Shown here piece by piece: positions 17,473-28,355 of a stretch of DNA of 64,000 nucleotides. Position 1 is the stretch's first letter. Each line of letters starts with the position of its first letter. The notes beneath the pieces were generated by a model. The model worked only from the letters and a program-made list of their open reading frames with translations. It was not told the DNA's origin and did no database searches. The stretch comes from Cyclobacteriaceae bacterium (lineage in GTDB: Bacteria > Bacteroidota > Bacteroidia > Cytophagales > Cyclobacteriaceae): contig JAEUUI010000030.1 in assembly GCA_016786585.1 (NCBI GenBank), positions 186,001 through 250,000 of the forward strand. The letters run 5' to 3'. The translations under genes and the position numbers were made by a program.

Positions 17473-18429
17473 TTACAACCACTTTTTACGTTTAAAAAAC
17501 CAAAGGAATAAAAGCGATGAGATAATCATCAGGGTAATGGCTATCGGGTAGCCCATGGCCCATTTGAGTTCGGGCATGAACTCGAAGTTCATACCGTAGA
17601 TGCTGGCGATCAGCGTGGGCGGCATAAACACTACGGTTACTACCGTAAAGATTTTGATGACGGTGTTTTGTTCAATGTTAATCAACCCCAGAAATGTATC
17701 CTGCAGGTATTCGAGGCGTTCGAAGCTGAATTGGGTATGCTGCAGGATGGAATTGATGTCTCGGAAAATAATCCGCAGACGTTCGTTCTCCGTATCAGGC
17801 ACGACTGAACTTTTCAGCAGTGACGAAACAAGCCGCTGTTTATCGACCACGCTTTCACGTGCCAGGATGGTATTCTCCTGCATTTCGGTAATCTCGAGCA
17901 GCAAATCTTCCTTGTAGTATTTTTCTTTTAATAACCGCTTGCTCACCCGGCTGGTGAGTTTTGAGATATACTCTATAAAGTCGGCATCTTTGTCTATCTG
18001 GGTTTCCAGCAGCATTAAGAAGATCTGGTAGCCGGTAAATGCAGACGAACTTTTATTCACTTTCAGTTTCCTGACGGTCTCGGCAAAGGCCTTAATATCG
18101 GCTTGCCGCATCGTAAACAGGATATCTTTTTTTAGCAGGAACGAAACCTGCTCGGCCATGTAGGTTTTGTTCTCGTAAACAATGAATGAGTTGTTTCCTT
18201 CTATGCTCAGCTCGTCTTCAAAATACCGCGAACTGCTTTCTATCTCTTCTGCTTCCTGCGGTGTAAACAATTCGATCTGAAATGTTCGTTCCACATGCTT
18301 TCGTTCTTCTTCTGATGACGACTGCATGTCCACCCACACAATTCGCTCACAATTGTCAGGGATTAATTTATCGGGAGCCTTTACCCAATGCAGACCACCT
18401 TCCTTTTGCTGATAGAATACCCGAATCAT
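17473..18429 (-). CDS. corA: CorA-type magnesium/divalent cation transporter
   Basis: 318 residues. Large cytoplasmic alpha/beta and helical part (residues 1-255), then two membrane helices. The signature GMN triplet sits at about residues 279-281 after the first helix (YGMNFEFMPEL, where MPEL is the usual loop), and the protein ends in the basic tail KRKKWL that faces the cytoplasm. CorA channels form homopentamers that take up Mg2+ (or Co2+/Ni2+). It is a single gene. Length is normal for the family. Confidence 0.95.
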   Translation of the reverse strand: MIRVFYQQKEGGLHWVKAPDKLIPDNCERIVWVDMQSSSEEERKHVERTFQIELFTPQEAEEIESSSRYFEDELSIEGNNSFIVYENKTYMAEQVSFLLKKDILFTMRQADIKAFAETVRKLKVNKSSSAFTGYQIFLMLLETQIDKDADFIEYISKLTSRVSKRLLKEKYYKEDLLLEITEMQENTILARESVVDKQRLVSSLLKSSVVPDTENERLRIIFRDINSILQHTQFSFERLEYLQDTFLGLINIEQNTVIKIFTVVTVVFMPPTLIASIYGMNFEFMPELKWAMGYPIAITLMIISSLLFLWFFKRKKWL

Positions 18430-18594
18430 AACCGCATTATTTTCGGCTAATATACTTGTAACAATTGGTAAATCAGTTCAGGTTAAGGCTTGTGTTAACC
18501 TGTACCACGGTTTATTCTGATGAATCAAGGTTCCGCGATTACAACCGGTGCGATAATGCCCGTGCACGCTTCGATGTATGCAGATGGGGTAGCG

Positions 18595-19002
18595 TTACTC
18601 GCCATTCTTATTCAGAACAGGATCCCACAGGTAGTTGCCCCGGCTGTTCACGGCAATCCAGGTAGCGCCGGTGTTCAGGTTAACGAGGTAGGTGTACTTT
18701 CTTTCGAAGCCGGACACGAACACCTGGTAATTCACTTTGCCCGGATGCACGATGCTGTCGTACGGATGGTTGAGGCGGGTCATTTTAGTCCAGGATTGAA
18801 AGGCTTTATCGTCAAACACGATGCGATAAACATCACCGGTGTATTTGTCGGTCTTGAATACGATCCGGCCGAGCAGGTTGGATTGAATAATCTCGAAGCG
18901 CGAGTCGGGCGGAACGGTTGTTGACACATAGTCGGTGGTGGTCTGCGAAAATGCTGCAGGGCTTGCCAGCAGCAGTGCAATAATCAGGAGGCGATTTTTC
19001 AT
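18595..19002 (-). CDS. Small secreted hypothetical protein
   Basis: 135 residues. Clear signal peptide (residues 1-20, ending AFSQ). The mature part is beta-rich with aromatic residues ('SRFEIIQSNLLGRIVFKTDKYTG', 'TWIAVNSRGNYLWDPV') and has no cysteine. No family was recognised. It is monocistronic, with about 165 bases to corA and 277 bases to the next gene. Confidence 0.72.
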   Translation of the reverse strand: MKNRLLIIALLLASPAAFSQTTTDYVSTTVPPDSRFEIIQSNLLGRIVFKTDKYTGDVYRIVFDDKAFQSWTKMTRLNHPYDSIVHPGKVNYQVFVSGFERKYTYLVNLNTGATWIAVNSRGNYLWDPVLNKNGE

Positions 19003-19279
19003 AGTGGTTGATTTATTTGGTTGGTGTTATACCGGGTTTGCAAATTTCTTTGAGGTTGTGCTGCGTGTGAGTAAGAAAACATACATCTAACGCTGTTACT
19101 TTACTAAAACGGTGTTTATCGCTTTTAAAAAGGAGTTGTCAATATCTGTAAACACCTGGCAGTATGCGTGTATGGCAGCGGTAAAGTTGGCGTAAACGGT
19201 ACACTTAGCTTTCCGGGGGCTGGTATGTGAATTCCATTTACTCGTGTAAGTTGACGGTATCATTTGAAACTGTTGACTT

Positions 19280-19468
19280 ATGGACCGTTTGTACATTGTT
19301 ATCATTCCTGTTTTTGGTTTACTGATTGTTCATCGTGCGGATAAGCTTGTTCAGTCGATCCGTGAAAAGCGGAAGCGCGCGAGTATGATTCATGCAGTTG
19401 TGTTGGTGGTGCTCCTGGTGGTTGCATCTTTTCTTGTGGCGGTTATCGAGAAGATGTGCGGACGGTAG
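19280..19468 (+). CDS. Two-helix small membrane protein, first of a tandem paralogous pair
   Basis: 62 residues: helix 1 at about residues 4-19, a basic loop (HRADKLVQSIREKRKR), helix 2 at about 36-56. It aligns along its whole length with the next gene (Y-x4-P-x-F ... R-x2-KL-x-QSI ... V-x-L-x-VV ... IE). Nothing is known of the function; the basic loop should lie in the cytoplasm. Confidence 0.65.
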   Translation: MDRLYIVIIPVFGLLIVHRADKLVQSIREKRKRASMIHAVVLVVLLVVASFLVAVIEKMCGR

Positions 19469-19472
19469 GTGT

Positions 19473-19649
19473 ATGTACCTGTTGCTGTTTCCGCTGTTTG
19501 CCGCAATCCTGCTGGACCGCATTCAAAAGCTCAGGCAGTCGATTAAGAAAGATGACCGCGAGGCGATCAGGGCTGAATGGTTGCATGTGGGTTTGATTGT
19601 GGTGGTGATGGGAATACTGCTGTTGCTTATTGAATTTAAGCAAGATTAA
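19473..19649 (+). CDS. Two-helix small membrane protein, second of the tandem pair
   Basis: 58 residues from the ATG at 19473, four bases after the stop of its paralogue. Longer versions in the same frame start inside the upstream gene and lack the paralogue-like N-terminus. Helix 1 about residues 2-16, basic loop RIQKLRQSIKKDDREAIR, helix 2 about 36-54. Tandem duplication followed by divergence is the simplest origin. Confidence 0.62.
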   Translation: MYLLLFPLFAAILLDRIQKLRQSIKKDDREAIRAEWLHVGLIVVVMGILLLLIEFKQD

Positions 19650-19704
19650 TGCCACCGGACCAACTGGTGTTTACAAGAATTTACAGATTTACCTTGAGCG
19701 CAAC

Positions 19705-20229
19705 GCACGAATTTCTTCTGGGAAAGCTCTAAGTCTTTTCAGGAAAGCTTTAATTCCTTTCCGGGAAGCTCTAAGTCTTTTCGGGATAGCTCTAATTCCT
19801 TTCGAGATAGCTCTAAGTCCTTTCCGGGAAGCACTAAGTCTTTTCCAGAAAGCTCTAATTCCTTTCCGGGAAGCTCTAAGTCTCTTCGGGGATGCTCTAA
19901 TTTCTTTTGGGATAGCTCTAAGTCTTTTCCGGAAAGCTCTAAGTCTCTTCGGGGATACTCTAATTCCTTTCGGGAAAGCTCTAAGTCTGCTCGGGGTCGC
20001 TCTAAGTCTGCTCGGGGTCGCTCTAAGTCTGCTCAGGGTCGCTCTAAGTCTGCTCAGGGTCGCTCTAAGTCTGCTCAGGATCGTTCTAAGTCTACTCCGG
20101 ATTGCTCTAAGCTTGCTCGGGGTTGCTCTAAGTCAACTCAGGATCGCTCTAAGTCTGCTCGGGGTTGCTCTAAGCCTCCGCGAAGCTGGTCTAAGTCTCC
20201 GTGAGGGTGCTATAAGTCTCTGTAAGATT
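19705..20229. repeat. Array of 25 tandem 21-bp units
   Basis: Every unit is exactly 21 bp with no insertion or deletion. Each starts with a conserved half, GCTCTAAGTCT (or the variant GCTCTAATTCC), followed by a more variable half. Units 0-12 (left) have variable halves like TTTCCGGGAA, which form dyads TTCC/GGAA, and tend to alternate AAGT and AATT types. Units 13-21 (right) have variable halves like GCTCGGGGTC; neighbouring units 13-14 and 15-16 are identical. The last units are degenerate. Two forward frames are open through the array because 21 is divisible by three, but neither has an in-frame ATG before it. The array starts 55 bases after a small membrane gene and ends 74 bases from the stop of the unknown gene at 20304. 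Confidence 0.95.
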
Positions 20230-20303
20230 ATGAGTTCGCTGGATGGAGATGCCGATTATACCGTTGGGGGGTGCGGAGGTCAAAAAGCAACTGCCTAGTA
20301 CAA

Positions 20304-21611
20304 TCATAATAACTTTTCATCAAGTTTACTCCTCCATTTTTCGAAAGCATCAACAATCCCTGAAGCTATATCTTGATGTTTTATCACACTAAAGACAAGA
20401 TCGGCTTCTTGATGGACATCTCTGTTCGCACGTTTGTAGTTCTCTCTTCCGCTTATCTTTATACTATTGATTTCACTTTCTACTCTCTTGTACTGTAGTT
20501 CAATCTCGTTCTGCATCCTGGGAATGCTCCAGATGTATGTTGCATGAGAGTTAAGTAGCTCCCAAACAAAGTGGTTGTATTCCGTTCCTTCTATCAAAAA
20601 TAAAAAGCCGAAATTCGGATGTAGTGTGTAATGAAGTTTATGATTTTCGGTTTGCTTTTTATCCGCCAAATAAACGAGTTGTTTTCCATTTCGGATACCG
20701 CTCTTAGCAATAAAGAAATTTAAAATATCCTCTTCCGACTGACTAAAAACATTGCCTGCACTATCCCCACTATCTATTTGCGCAAAGATTTCTTGTATTG
20801 TAAATAAAGATTTGTCAGGATTTTGTACACGCGGTTCTTTTGACAACGCAACCGTGCGTTGGTACTTTACACTATCAATTAACTCTGGTGTAATTTGATC
20901 TATATGCGCTGATGTCGCCAATACCTCAGGTGCTTCGTTATGTCTTAGCGTTATTACAACAGTGACTTTAAGCTTCTTTATCTTTAGCTTTTTTGCAAAC
21001 CAAATTTTTATGTGTTCAAACTCAGCTAAAATATGCTCGTTGTAAATCCTGACTTCAAACTCCTTCCTCAATTTCTTTATATGCCTCTTAAAATACACAC
21101 AGCCTAACATGAAACAGACATCATTAAAATCAAGCGAAAACTTTTCTGTAACTATCGATACTCTTGGCTGAATATCTTGCGCTCTATTTACGGAGGACGA
21201 AGGAAAAGGAAGGCCAGACTTGAAAAGTTTATTCGTTGGAAGATCGTCTTTTGAAAATGGTGAAGTTTCTATGTTGAATACAACATCGCGAAGGCCACTC
21301 TTGCGGTAAGATGATAGAAGTGGTTCGAGTTTCTCCCAGTCAAGTTTTTCAAATAACACTTTCTTAACTTCTTTCTTTGGCTGCTGCTCATTAAAGCTCA
21401 AAATATCATTCGTGTTATAATTATTTACTTTAAGTTTTAAACATTTGTCAGACGACTTATACTCAAGCATTTCAACTATCCAGAAAATGTCTTGGTTAGG
21501 GCGAAATGTCAAATGCTCCTTTGGGATATTTGTCTGCTGAAAGGAGATTAAAAGACTCGGATTGAAATAAATCCCTTTGTCGGATACTTTTACGGTCAGT
21601 TGATTATCCAT
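20304..21611 (-). CDS. Unknown protein in AT-rich island
   Basis: 435 residues from the ATG at 21611; a GTG 24 bases upstream in frame would add eight residues including a cysteine, which seems less likely. No signal peptide or membrane helix. The sequence is rich in Lys, Ile, Phe and Asn and visibly more AT-rich than the flanking genes. No known domain was recognised; the C-terminal part contains a basic, helical section ('YKRVESEINSIKISGRENYKRANRD'-type region, residues about 375-405). It is divergent from the HNH gene at 21806, with 194 bases between, so both could share a control region. A role in DNA defence is suggested only by the neighbours. Confidence 0.8.
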   Translation of the reverse strand: MDNQLTVKVSDKGIYFNPSLLISFQQTNIPKEHLTFRPNQDIFWIVEMLEYKSSDKCLKLKVNNYNTNDILSFNEQQPKKEVKKVLFEKLDWEKLEPLLSSYRKSGLRDVVFNIETSPFSKDDLPTNKLFKSGLPFPSSSVNRAQDIQPRVSIVTEKFSLDFNDVCFMLGCVYFKRHIKKLRKEFEVRIYNEHILAEFEHIKIWFAKKLKIKKLKVTVVITLRHNEAPEVLATSAHIDQITPELIDSVKYQRTVALSKEPRVQNPDKSLFTIQEIFAQIDSGDSAGNVFSQSEEDILNFFIAKSGIRNGKQLVYLADKKQTENHKLHYTLHPNFGFLFLIEGTEYNHFVWELLNSHATYIWSIPRMQNEIELQYKRVESEINSIKISGRENYKRANRDVHQEADLVFSVIKHQDIASGIVDAFEKWRSKLDEKLL

Positions 21612-21805
21612 TTTTTTTCTGCAATAAGGCTTCACAGCTGCAATGAAACAATCTTATGCTTGACTGAAATGAGAAGGGTGATGATTATCAAAAGCCCTGA
21701 CATTCGGTCTCATTTGAATGTTTTCTGAGCATATGGGTGTGTTGTTGTTAAAAGTACTGCTAAACCTAAAAACTTGCGCTATCTTGTAAAATAAACACCA
21801 TAAAA

Positions 21806-22753
21806 ATGAGGTTTTATATTGGCGTGACAGACAATAACTGGTACAATTTTCTATCCAAAACCACTCCCGATGACATAAACTTTTGGCAGCCTGGAGGAAA
21901 CTCAAACTTCAAAATACTAAGTCCTGGTGCGCCTTTTCTCTTTAAGCTAAAAAAGCCGTTGAACGCTATTGGAGGGTTGGGCTTTTTTTCGAGTCAAACA
22001 TTTTTACCGCTTTCCGTTGCATGGGACATTTTTGCCGAACGAAACGGTTGCGAAAATCTTTCTGGATTCAAAAAACTTATTCTCTCACATCGAAAAGACA
22101 AACAAGAAATTAATCCAACAATTGGATGCATAGTGTTAACGAACCCGATTTTTTTTGATCAAGAAGATTGGATCGAAACCCCACCGAATTGGGCAAAGAG
22201 TATTGTACAAGGAAAGTCTTACTCCACCGGAGAACCAATAGGCGGCAACATATGGCGAAGGATTGAATTGCTATTGTCTAAATATCTAAATCAGAATGTA
22301 AATCCGGGGCTAAAAAGTCAATTGATACTTGAAGAAACTGACTACCCTTCTGCTTATGGTAAGTCCATCCTGGCAAAAGTTAGACTAGGCCAAAGCGCCT
22401 TTCGCGTCCTTGTAACAGATGCCTACGAAAGACGATGCGCGATCACCGGTGAAAAAACTCTTCCGGTATTGGAAGCCGCACACATAAAACAATACTCAGA
22501 ATCAGGGCCGCACTTTATTTCTAATGGGATTCTTCTAAGGTCAGATGTTCATAAACTATTCGATATCGGCTATTTAACAATAACCAACGATTTAAAGGTT
22601 GAGGTAAGTAAAAGGATAAAAGAAGAGTTTGAGAATGGTCGCGAATACTATCAGTACCATGGCAAAAATCTCAACGTTTTGCCAAACAAAGACAACAATA
22701 GACCAAATTCACTTTACATTGATTGGCATAACTCGAATATCTTTAAAGGGTAG
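21806..22753 (+). CDS. HNH endonuclease with N-terminal PUA/EVE-like domain, possible modification-dependent restriction enzyme
   Basis: 315 residues. The C-terminal part (about residues 205-265) is an HNH_2-type nuclease: 'YERRCAITGE' then EAAHIKQYSESGPH, then 'NGILLRSDVHKLFDIGYLTI', where AAH, N and the H of VHKLFD give the His-Asn-His set. The N-terminal 150 residues begin YIGVTDNNWYNFL and contain a 'LSPGAPFLFKLK...IGGLGFF' stretch that resembles the PUA/EVE fold used to read modified bases; that assignment is by eye. EVE-HNH and SRA-HNH proteins are type IV restriction enzymes that cut DNA with modified cytosine. The gene stands alone, convergent with the 68-residue gene. Confidence 0.82.
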   Translation: MRFYIGVTDNNWYNFLSKTTPDDINFWQPGGNSNFKILSPGAPFLFKLKKPLNAIGGLGFFSSQTFLPLSVAWDIFAERNGCENLSGFKKLILSHRKDKQEINPTIGCIVLTNPIFFDQEDWIETPPNWAKSIVQGKSYSTGEPIGGNIWRRIELLLSKYLNQNVNPGLKSQLILEETDYPSAYGKSILAKVRLGQSAFRVLVTDAYERRCAITGEKTLPVLEAAHIKQYSESGPHFISNGILLRSDVHKLFDIGYLTITNDLKVEVSKRIKEEFENGREYYQYHGKNLNVLPNKDNNRPNSLYIDWHNSNIFKG

Positions 22754-23003: not shown

Positions 23004-23771
23004 TCAATGTTTATAGCGTTCCCGATTATGATAGCGCAAAAATTCCGGATCAGGCAGAAACCTTGAGGGAGCTATTATTTTTTTGCCATCAAATTTCTTA
23101 AAAAAATCAATCGAATATCGCTCCTTGCTCAAGATTCTCGGAGATATTTTAATAACGTAGTCTGGGGTAATAGTCATAAGGCCAGACTCGAACGCTCGAT
23201 CATGAAGCGCATTTATTGAGATCCCATTTCTCGGATTAAGCCTATTGCGCTCATCTATTCCCCAAGGGCGAATATGAGCAGCTATCAAAAACTCCGAATG
23301 TTTCATTCCTGTCACGCAACAGGTTCCGTTATAGGAAGCCAAAATTGTAGATCGAAAAAAAGCTTGATTGACACGAACTTTAATAAGCGCTTCGCGTACT
23401 TTACCAACCTTGGGAAGGTCATCCGTAACAATATTATTCAATTCCTCGACAGTAGTCATTTTAAATTTAGCAACGAGCTTTTCGCTTTCATAAGGTAAGT
23501 CATCCCAATTATTGAAAAACTCATTCCAAATTTCTTTATCAAGATTACTCGTGTTTTCCGCTCCTTTTATCCCTCTTGCTTTAAGACTTGGATCTAAGCT
23601 GGCGAAATTCACAAGTTTATAGGCCACGGAACTTGGGGTTCGTCCAATTAACGATGCAAGGCTTATAACCTCAGGATTACGATTATGAAGCCTCCCAAAG
23701 GGAAGCTTACAGTACAGATTAATGACGAGTATTAATTCGTTTCTTGTCCATAATTTTTGCCCAGCCTTCAT
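23004..23771 (-). CDS. HNH endonuclease with N-terminal Myb/HTH-like region
   Basis: 255 residues. Nuclease core at about residues 148-215: 'SYNGTCCVTGM', then IAAHIRPWGIDERNRLNPRNG, then 'NALHDRAFESGLMTI'; these are the His, Asn and His elements of the HNH_2 family often labelled putative restriction endonuclease. The N-terminal 80 residues start with WTRNELILVINLYCKLPFG and contain 'LASLIGRTPSSVAYKLVNFASLDP', a helix-turn-helix/Myb-like pattern typical of this family and probably used for DNA binding. The ATG overlaps the stop of the zinc-ribbon gene (ATGA), so expression is coupled. It is only weakly similar to the HNH protein at 21806 outside the core. Confidence 0.88.
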   Translation of the reverse strand: MKAGQKLWTRNELILVINLYCKLPFGRLHNRNPEVISLASLIGRTPSSVAYKLVNFASLDPSLKARGIKGAENTSNLDKEIWNEFFNNWDDLPYESEKLVAKFKMTTVEELNNIVTDDLPKVGKVREALIKVRVNQAFFRSTILASYNGTCCVTGMKHSEFLIAAHIRPWGIDERNRLNPRNGISINALHDRAFESGLMTITPDYVIKISPRILSKERYSIDFFKKFDGKKIIAPSRFLPDPEFLRYHNRERYKH

Positions 23772-24483: not shown

Positions 24484-24901
24484 GATGAGATTGCTTCAGT
24501 CGTGATACTTCATTGTAAACGAATCATGCGGGTTACTCCTTCCCGCCAGTGGGCGGGCACGCGCAATGACGGTTGGCAATGACGGTGAGGCCCTTCGGAC
24601 CTTCAATACTAACTATATCATACAACAAGGGGATCCTTCTCCCGACAGGTCGGGATCACGATGACGGTTCGGAACGGGATTGGTTCGGTAGCGATGCTTT
24701 GTTGTAAACGATGAGATTGCTTCGGTCGCGATGCTGTGTTGTAAACCAGTTGTCCGAGGTGCTCTCTCCCGCCAATGGGCGGGCACGCGCAATGACGGGC
24801 GGTCGTGGTACTGCGTGGTAAACTATTCGTCCGTGTTACTCCTCCCGCCAGTGGGCGGGCACGCGCAATGACGGTTGGCAATTACGGTTGCGCAATGACG
24901 G
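24484..24901. repeat. Three composite intergenic repeats
   Basis: Three related blocks lie one after another: about 24488-24590, 24700-24799 and 24803-24901. Each has, in order, a GATTGCTTCRGTCGYGAT-like part (worn down in the third), a TTGTAAAC-like part, a TCCCGCC-A-x-TGGGCGGG hairpin, and GCACGCGCAATGACGG. The last two blocks abut. No coding sequence fits. The 'agattgcttcg...gcaatgacgg' frame resembles a repeat seen between genes of many bacteria, recalled from general knowledge and not checked here. Confidence 0.75.
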
Positions 24902-28121: not shown

Positions 28122-28328
28122 ATGCTTCAGGATTTGATTTTTATTGTACTGTTTGGATTGGGGATTGTGTACTACTTGTTCTCGGTGCTATGTCTGCTGG
28201 CGAAGCCTAACAAATCGGATTTCGAAAAACTGGAGTTGAATTATCATGCAGCGCTGCTGGCGATCTTAATCCTGGCGCTGATCTCATGCCTGCGGACGAT
28301 TGCGTTGATAAGGGGATATCGAATTTAG
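28122..28328 (+). CDS. Two-helix small membrane protein
   Basis: 68 residues. Helix 1 about residues 4-27, polar loop AKPNKSDFEKLELNYH, helix 2 about 43-58, basic end RGYRI. The stop codon falls inside a short tandem repeat that also forms the end of the convergent DUF4188 gene. Function unknown. Confidence 0.55.
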   Translation: MLQDLIFIVLFGLGIVYYLFSVLCLLAKPNKSDFEKLELNYHAALLAILILALISCLRTIALIRGYRI

Positions 28329-28355
28329 AATTTTGAATTTAGAATTTTGAATTTA
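28324..28355. repeat. Short tandem repeat of 14 bp at a convergent gene boundary
   Basis: TTTAGAATTTTGAA occurs at 28324-28337 and 28338-28351 and begins a third time. It carries the stop of the plus-strand gene and encodes the last residues (SKF) and stop of the minus-strand gene. Confidence 0.85.

Follow-up and report, generated by a model that had tools for sequence, protein, structure and literature searches.

A 21-bp tandem array from Cyclobacteriaceae points to a two-part system of a helical protein family and constant-period repeats

Introduction

What holds 25 tandem units at exactly the same length while half of each unit is free to change? The question is raised by array A, which occupies positions 19705–20229 of the window, that is, of the whole 64,000-nucleotide stretch of DNA analysed here (contig C9, positions 186001–250000, of the 4.19-Mb Cyclobacteriaceae genome G000). 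The original prediction pointed out that 21 bp amounts to two turns of B-DNA, which would put every conserved core on one side of the helix; it considered that such an array would suit a DNA–protein complex, serving in binding, bending or segregation, as well as a transcribed structural repeat, and doubted that it is translated.

Results

Units of array A

The predicted layout of 25 units of 21 bp was borne out with zero insertions or deletions, and TRF assigned the array a score of 357. The 25 units comprise 22 different sequences, with an identity of 0.77 at lag 21. The division into a conserved and a variable half also holds: columns of the GCTCTAA core stand at 0.92–1.00, with AA in 25/25 units, and the variable positions are 11–13, 16 and 19–21. 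Both predicted subfamilies are there, with TTTTC..GGAA units on the left and GCTCGGGGTC from 19978 onwards, as are the identical neighbouring units (19978/19999 and 20020/20041); a third kind of unit (CTCCGYGA) occupies 20167–20208. Two forward frames had been thought to stay open; only one is fully open, the second having 2 stops and the third 27. The units are contiguous without spacers and no cas match was found among the ten window neighbours scanned, so that array A shows no CRISPR features.

Table 1. Array A and its immediate neighbours in the window. The strand given for array A is the one equivalent to the gene-sense strand of home copies.
Feature	Position	Strand	Remarks
Array A, 25 x 21-bp units	19705..20229	-	Orphan, TTAGAGC unit family (GCTCTAA on the + strand)
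Left unit block (GCTCTAA[G/T]TC..TTTC..GGAA/GGATA)	19726..19977	-	Nearest match: home array on contig C1 of G011
Right unit block (GCTCTAAGTCTGCTCGGGGTC and variants)	19978..20166	-	Holds two identical neighbour pairs
Final three units	20167..20229	-	20167–20208 resemble the contig C30 home array (CTCCGYGA)
443-aa ORF	20304..21635	-	Stop 74 bp from array A, array-sense direction; no family match; neighbour only
Small ORF, 58 aa, membrane-like	19473..19649	+	End 55 bp from the other end of array A; neighbour only

A gene family beside 21-bp arrays

A DNA search of the genome found the units of array A at two more places, array B (C9:454.7–455.3 kb) and array C (C30:505.7–505.9 kb). Array C adjoins a 248-aa gene whose family we name SETGHAKN, after its N terminus. 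G000 holds four such genes, and behind each of them come a terminator-like hairpin and, next, a 21-bp array of its own; SETGHAKN genes also lie beside GCTCTAA-type arrays in the congener G011, in Flavobacterium JAD_PAG50586_2 and in F. aquatile.

The proteins are about 248 aa long, basic (pI 9.1–10.4 in 15/15) and predicted to be all-alpha. They contain two internal repeats, and the alignment of 15 sequences (A1) has 12 invariant columns, with R70, R196, K215 and K219 among the invariant residues. The AlphaFold model, obtained for four sequences, is all-alpha with two similar halves (pLDDT 87, pTM 0.75); Foldseek returned nothing for it at E <= 0.001, the best values being 0.13 in PDB and 0.03 in BFVD. 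SETGHAKN had zero matches above the curated cut-offs in Pfam, NCBIfam and PADLOC and weak matches only in PHROGs, which has no cut-offs, and neither the family scans nor the model revealed a catalytic domain. DUF6261, matched by 1/23 members at E 0.0021, under its cut-off, was taken as a chance match, as were 14-3-3 and other weak PDB sequence matches (E 0.013 and above).

SETGHAKN was detected in 7/59 relatives, in 10/392 genomes of a phylum sample, in 5/32 genomes reached via array loci and on one IMG/VR contig, in total in 20 distinct genomes and that contig. Within the genus it occurs in 2/17 genomes, and the GCTCTAA triple pattern occurs in the same two. One case comes from a Verrucomicrobiaceae MAG (L160), and the largest number of copies per genome, 12, from a Dysgonamonadaceae MAG (G811). 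Searched with the L112 protein as query, 50,697 phage and 72,556 plasmid records contained no SETGHAKN. Among 89 neighbour ORFs (of 96 found) no conserved partner gene was prominent beside the home copies, judging by the first 25 of 71 Pfam families and the first 25 of 80 PADLOC families listed. We found no description of this gene and array system in the family libraries scanned or in the literature covered (mainly papers outside subscription, preprints excluded), and together the SETGHAKN family and its 21-bp arrays suggest that bacteria have a two-part system so far unrecorded.

Linkage of gene and array

Linkage was measured by scoring the ungapped self-match at lags 8–60 in the stretch around each gene copy; a copy was positive if the score at lag 21 or 42 exceeded 16, the maximum of 200 random genus segments. 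A lag-21 array was thereby located near 39/48 SETGHAKN copies or fragments from the 20 genomes and the IMG/VR contig (24/30 and 15/18 in the two batches). As a second control, 100 segments were drawn from four further genomes that carry the gene, and two of them exceeded 16; one was a masked N run and the other a 21-bp array of Flavobacterium JAD that is real and probably itself an orphan. Overall, a comparable 21-bp array was present in 1/299 random 3.7-kb segments (300 drawn, one masked N), and chance is excluded because only this one was positive. Five copies had first been found through an array (L170, L171, L112, L084, L160), and without them the linkage is 34/43. Left out of all counts were L179, which is the second half of the ORF in L176, the repeat fetches L186, L196, L199, L201 and L172 (the first fetch of L187), the repeat fetches L311, L312 and L315 (of L112, L084 and L160), and the 26–37-aa pieces L326 and L333.

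The nine copies lacking a 21-bp array include three fragments of 27–32 aa (L180, L198, L200), L194, whose gene is broken by two stops, L319 and L325, which lie by contig ends, and L330; both G672 copies (L188, L197) have 8-bp arrays in place of 21-bp ones. The flanks of L194 (G727) hold repeats of 23–121 bp, none of 21 bp. Among the positives, L190, L192 and L195 are weak (score 23–26), and L190 also contains one stop. In 32/39 cases the array lies 3' of the gene, usually 74–175 bp and up to about 1 kb from the gene stop; in 7/39 it lies 5'. All four gene copies of G000 and all five of G011 have a 3' 21-bp array, and the unit sequences differ.

Approached from the arrays, the association is looser. 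Among 32 array-locus genomes, SETGHAKN was present in 0/9 with heptamer arrays and missing from 18/23 of the others, some of which have coding repeats; this means either that some arrays go with other partner genes or that the pattern by itself does not identify the system. F. psychrotolerans (L138) has 14–15 units of the JAD family, with the gene undetectable in the genome. Small helical-looking ORFs without a Pfam match adjoin 21-bp arrays in a Prevotellaceae MAG and a Dysgonamonadaceae MAG (L131, 154 aa, and L079, 172 aa), and these are possibly other partner families. The GCTCTAA triple was rejected as a sole marker: it matched 3/390 family genomes and so did the reversed control, and because the control matches equally often such triples alone prove nothing. 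A scan of the whole collection for GCTCTAA (at least 114 stretches) returned coding coiled coils, heptamers and 21-bp arrays mixed.

Orphan arrays

Array A is best explained as an orphan (trans) array of this system, whose home locus combines a SETGHAKN gene with a terminator-like hairpin and a 21-bp array. Its unit family is common to home arrays, with a similarity of 0.75 to that of G011 contig C1 and 0.65 to that of its own contig C30, as against at most 0.51 in the antisense direction, and the sharing of units also appears in BLAST matches. No SETGHAKN remnant is present within 18000–22400 around array A, and the four gene copies are elsewhere in the genome. By eye the gap next to array A looked like the terminator of the home copies, a likeness that did not hold.

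When the remaining three home arrays were pooled as queries, orphans came to light for each G000 unit family, bringing this genome to at least four home and at least seven orphan arrays (A, B, C23:139.0 kb, C30:384.0 kb, C8:85.5 kb, C7:450.0 kb and C7:421.2 kb); G011 has at least three orphans (C4:484.6 kb, C1:165.4 kb and C4:1116.7 kb). These counts are lower bounds, the G011 families having been searched in part. No gene remnants were found beside orphans (tblastn best E 0.21). In 11/13 orphan segments the closest home array belongs to the same genome; the exceptions are array A and the G011 orphan at 484 kb, which is nearest to G000 C14b. One G000 orphan is adjoined by a 99-bp tandem repeat of 5.5 copies (L251, 2730–3261).

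G000 and G011, which is another species of the same genus, have three orphan places in common. The genes next to them are orthologous: one is WD40-like (83% over 95 aa), one is 120 aa long (89%) and one is DHFR-like (68%). In the gene-less congener G002, where one place was compared, the DHFR-like block (72%) has no array. The recurrence of orphans beside the same three genes in two species suggests retention, not necessarily use.

A constant period with a free sequence

The fixed unit length claimed for array A holds well beyond it, in 37 arrays with unrelated units (35 home arrays, A and B). Mean self-identity in this set is 0.81, 0.82 and 0.79 at lags 21, 42 and 63, against 0.23–0.29 at lags that are not multiples of 21. 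Relatives with a freely varying unit length, against which the original prediction had set its reading, were unseen among the 21-bp arrays; the arrays of the G672 copies are of 8 bp. An origin of the 21-mer from heptamers, prompted by nearby 7-bp arrays, was rejected on the identity of 0.24 at lags 7 and 14, and no 7- or 14-bp substructure was found in the 37 arrays. The units read as direct repeats, some of which contain short dyads such as GAATTC. In four composite arrays the 21-bp phase is unbroken where one unit family gives way to another. Multi-unit periods of 42–105 bp occur and, with the identical neighbouring units, indicate ongoing duplication. Across the nine genus home arrays, unit similarity was not correlated with that of the proteins (Mantel r 0.13, p 0.19). 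The constant period, combined with the free sequence, excludes most coding and slippage readings.

Discussion

How the two parts might work together can be approached from the shape of both. We tentatively propose that SETGHAKN protein coats the 21-bp arrays with one molecule per two helical turns, a reading that may well be right, although we stop somewhat short of calling it likely. The basic, internally duplicated helical candidate protein would bind the double-stranded DNA of the arrays, each unit taking one molecule; with 21 bp making two turns, bound molecules would lie on the same face of the helix, and the contiguity of the units would turn them into a regular protein coat. Orphan arrays would be places coated in trans by the same or a sister protein, where the coat might anchor, insulate or bridge DNA beside gene ends. 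The two turns per unit, the basic two-half helical protein and the phase kept through family switches favour such a coat on double-stranded DNA; the regular orientation of arrays in the genus, described below, would not be needed by a strand-symmetric DNA site and counts against it, as do the nine gene copies lacking a 21-bp array, the arrays in genomes where the gene was not found (F. psychrotolerans and the 18/23) and a fold search that returned no match telling of function. Of the two options that the original prediction left side by side, the DNA–protein array has thus gained a candidate partner, encoded beside homologous arrays, whose binding we infer; for a segregation site we saw no evidence. 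In a wider version of the coat reading, which is conceivable but rather doubtful and would make this a nucleoprotein system of a new kind on the chromosome, sister proteins, each with its own 21-bp barcode, would coat home and orphan arrays on one face, the barcode being rewritten over time while the places and the two-turn period are kept, so that what is conserved as a signal would be the period rather than the sequence.

The missing co-variation of unit and protein is odd for base-specific recognition and favours a protein that measures length, which makes a selfish amplifier the main rival, if in our judgement an unlikely one. SETGHAKN would then make or spread 21-bp arrays in a RAYT-like manner, as a ruler for tandem duplication or copying, and the orphans would be products needing no function. 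The unit length is indeed constant with a sequence turnover independent of the protein, multi-unit periods coexist with identical neighbours, most orphans resemble home arrays of their own genome, and paralogues are many (12 in G811) and their neighbours diverse. Yet SETGHAKN shows neither a catalytic domain nor a family match, and in two species orphans persist next to the same three genes.

Should the arrays instead be transcribed, the protein might bind the 21-nt repeats in RNA, for storage or as a sponge or titration device. Orientation is what speaks for this. By inspection, 10/10 orphans examined in G000 and G011 follow the 3' end of a gene that runs in the sense direction (sense being the gene-sense strand of the home array), the other neighbour being of mixed orientation, and unit families weakly share their orientation to the gene (p 0.025). 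Against it, between gene and array stands a strong hairpin with a T-rich stretch after it in all nine genus home copies, and similar hairpins were seen by eye in several distant ones; because of this terminator-like element the home array is probably outside the main transcript of its gene. Moreover, both judgeable orphans of Flavobacterium JAD are reversed, the case of F. psychrotolerans being ambiguous, no orientation signal exists between the genus and other families (52/99), and seven arrays are on the 5' side. The sense-orientation rule for orphans may be local, and a system acting on RNA appears improbable to us.

The earlier doubt about translation was supported. Array A would, on the opposite view, be a present or past coding repeat, with the ORF 19630–20298 specifying a heptad-repeat peptide of seven-codon units, for which one could cite the open forward frame through the array, a slight excess of open frames per array over column-shuffled versions (2.62 against 2.15 in 37 arrays) and the F. 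aquatile array, with p 0.011 in the codon test. But 19/20 arrays show no three-base rhythm (1/20 at p<0.05; array A is outside the 20), 2/37 have no open frame at all, the open frame of array A is broken in array B and in F. aquatile, and home arrays sit behind terminator-like hairpins; we give this reading very little credence. An ordinary slipped-replication minisatellite without a partner, to which the further 21-bp array in random stretches of a gene-bearing Flavobacterium genome and the equal yield of the reversed pattern might point, is just as hard to believe in view of the one fixed length and the linkage to one gene family (39/48 against 1/299).

Several known systems invite comparison. 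RAYT transposase genes are flanked by their own REP/REPIN sequences, more copies of which are dispersed, and REPs are palindromic and singly dispersed. SETGHAKN resembles them in a gene flanked by its repeat, in dispersed further copies and in family-specific pairing, whereas its arrays read as direct repeats, long and contiguous, and no HUH/Y1 transposase match was found in Pfam, NCBIfam or PHROGs scans. In type III toxin–antitoxin systems (ToxIN), an array of longer units precedes the toxin gene and constitutes the RNA antitoxin. There, too, the gene is small and has a terminator and a tandem array of direct repeats next to it; the SETGHAKN array, in contrast, mostly follows its gene and has a 21-bp unit, the modelled protein is all-alpha, and no ToxN-like endoribonuclease match was found in Pfam, NCBIfam or PADLOC. 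Iterons and partition centromeres are direct repeats of about two helical turns that are bound by a dedicated protein. SETGHAKN arrays share the repeat type and its length, with a candidate cognate protein that may bind them, but they are chromosomal, contain up to about 25 contiguous units and are many per genome, and no replication or ParA neighbour of home copies was prominent among the first 25 Pfam and PADLOC families listed. The cyanobacterial STRR are heptamer repeats. TAACTGA heptamer repeats are described from Beggiatoaceae and some Bacteroidetes (PMC4679880). Heptamer repeats likewise form intergenic tandem arrays in partly the same phyla, 21 being 3 x 7; unlike them, 21-bp arrays have no heptamer-based substructure, and none of the nine heptamer-array genomes carried the gene. 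A long heptamer run of the GCTCTAAG type was observed in Salinicola salarius (L153, 1306–1809), perfect throughout the 12 lines of 21 bp inspected.

If the proposed system is real, several bacterial lineages carry an undescribed protein family tied to arrays, both home and trans, that keep their period while their sequence is free to vary. It would allow a direct test of how a protein can hold repeat length while sequence changes, and of what chromosomal arrays do in bacteria when they have no known centromere-like or mobile role. Many unexplained minisatellites would become typed elements with a candidate partner gene, and even the selfish reading would represent a new way for genomes to fill with tandem repeats.

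Other features of the window

The predicted nuclease neighbourhood of array A exists, in the form of two HNH_2 proteins at 21806–22753 and 23004–23771, the second of which (− strand) strongly matches the PADLOC model PDLC04132 (1.1e-89) and is likely a restriction-like nuclease. A link between the array and these genes was unsupported, relatives of the array having diverse neighbours. Compared with the genus, the flanking genes of array A gave distant CorA matches only, or none. The window contains no tRNA or tmRNA, and two Rfam matches in 18000–22000, both far under their gathering scores, were dropped. A sigma-70-like site (TTGACC-17-TATAAT, 11/12 to consensus) at 20255–20283 on the − strand is directed into array A and may be due to chance, the scan having returned 3 sites against 1.9 expected. 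Five GAATTTA heptamers stand at 28321–28355, and similar 7-bp arrays adjoin several home copies (L170, L171, L181, L182). At 24723–24874, a 76-bp unit in two copies is followed by a 13-bp array.
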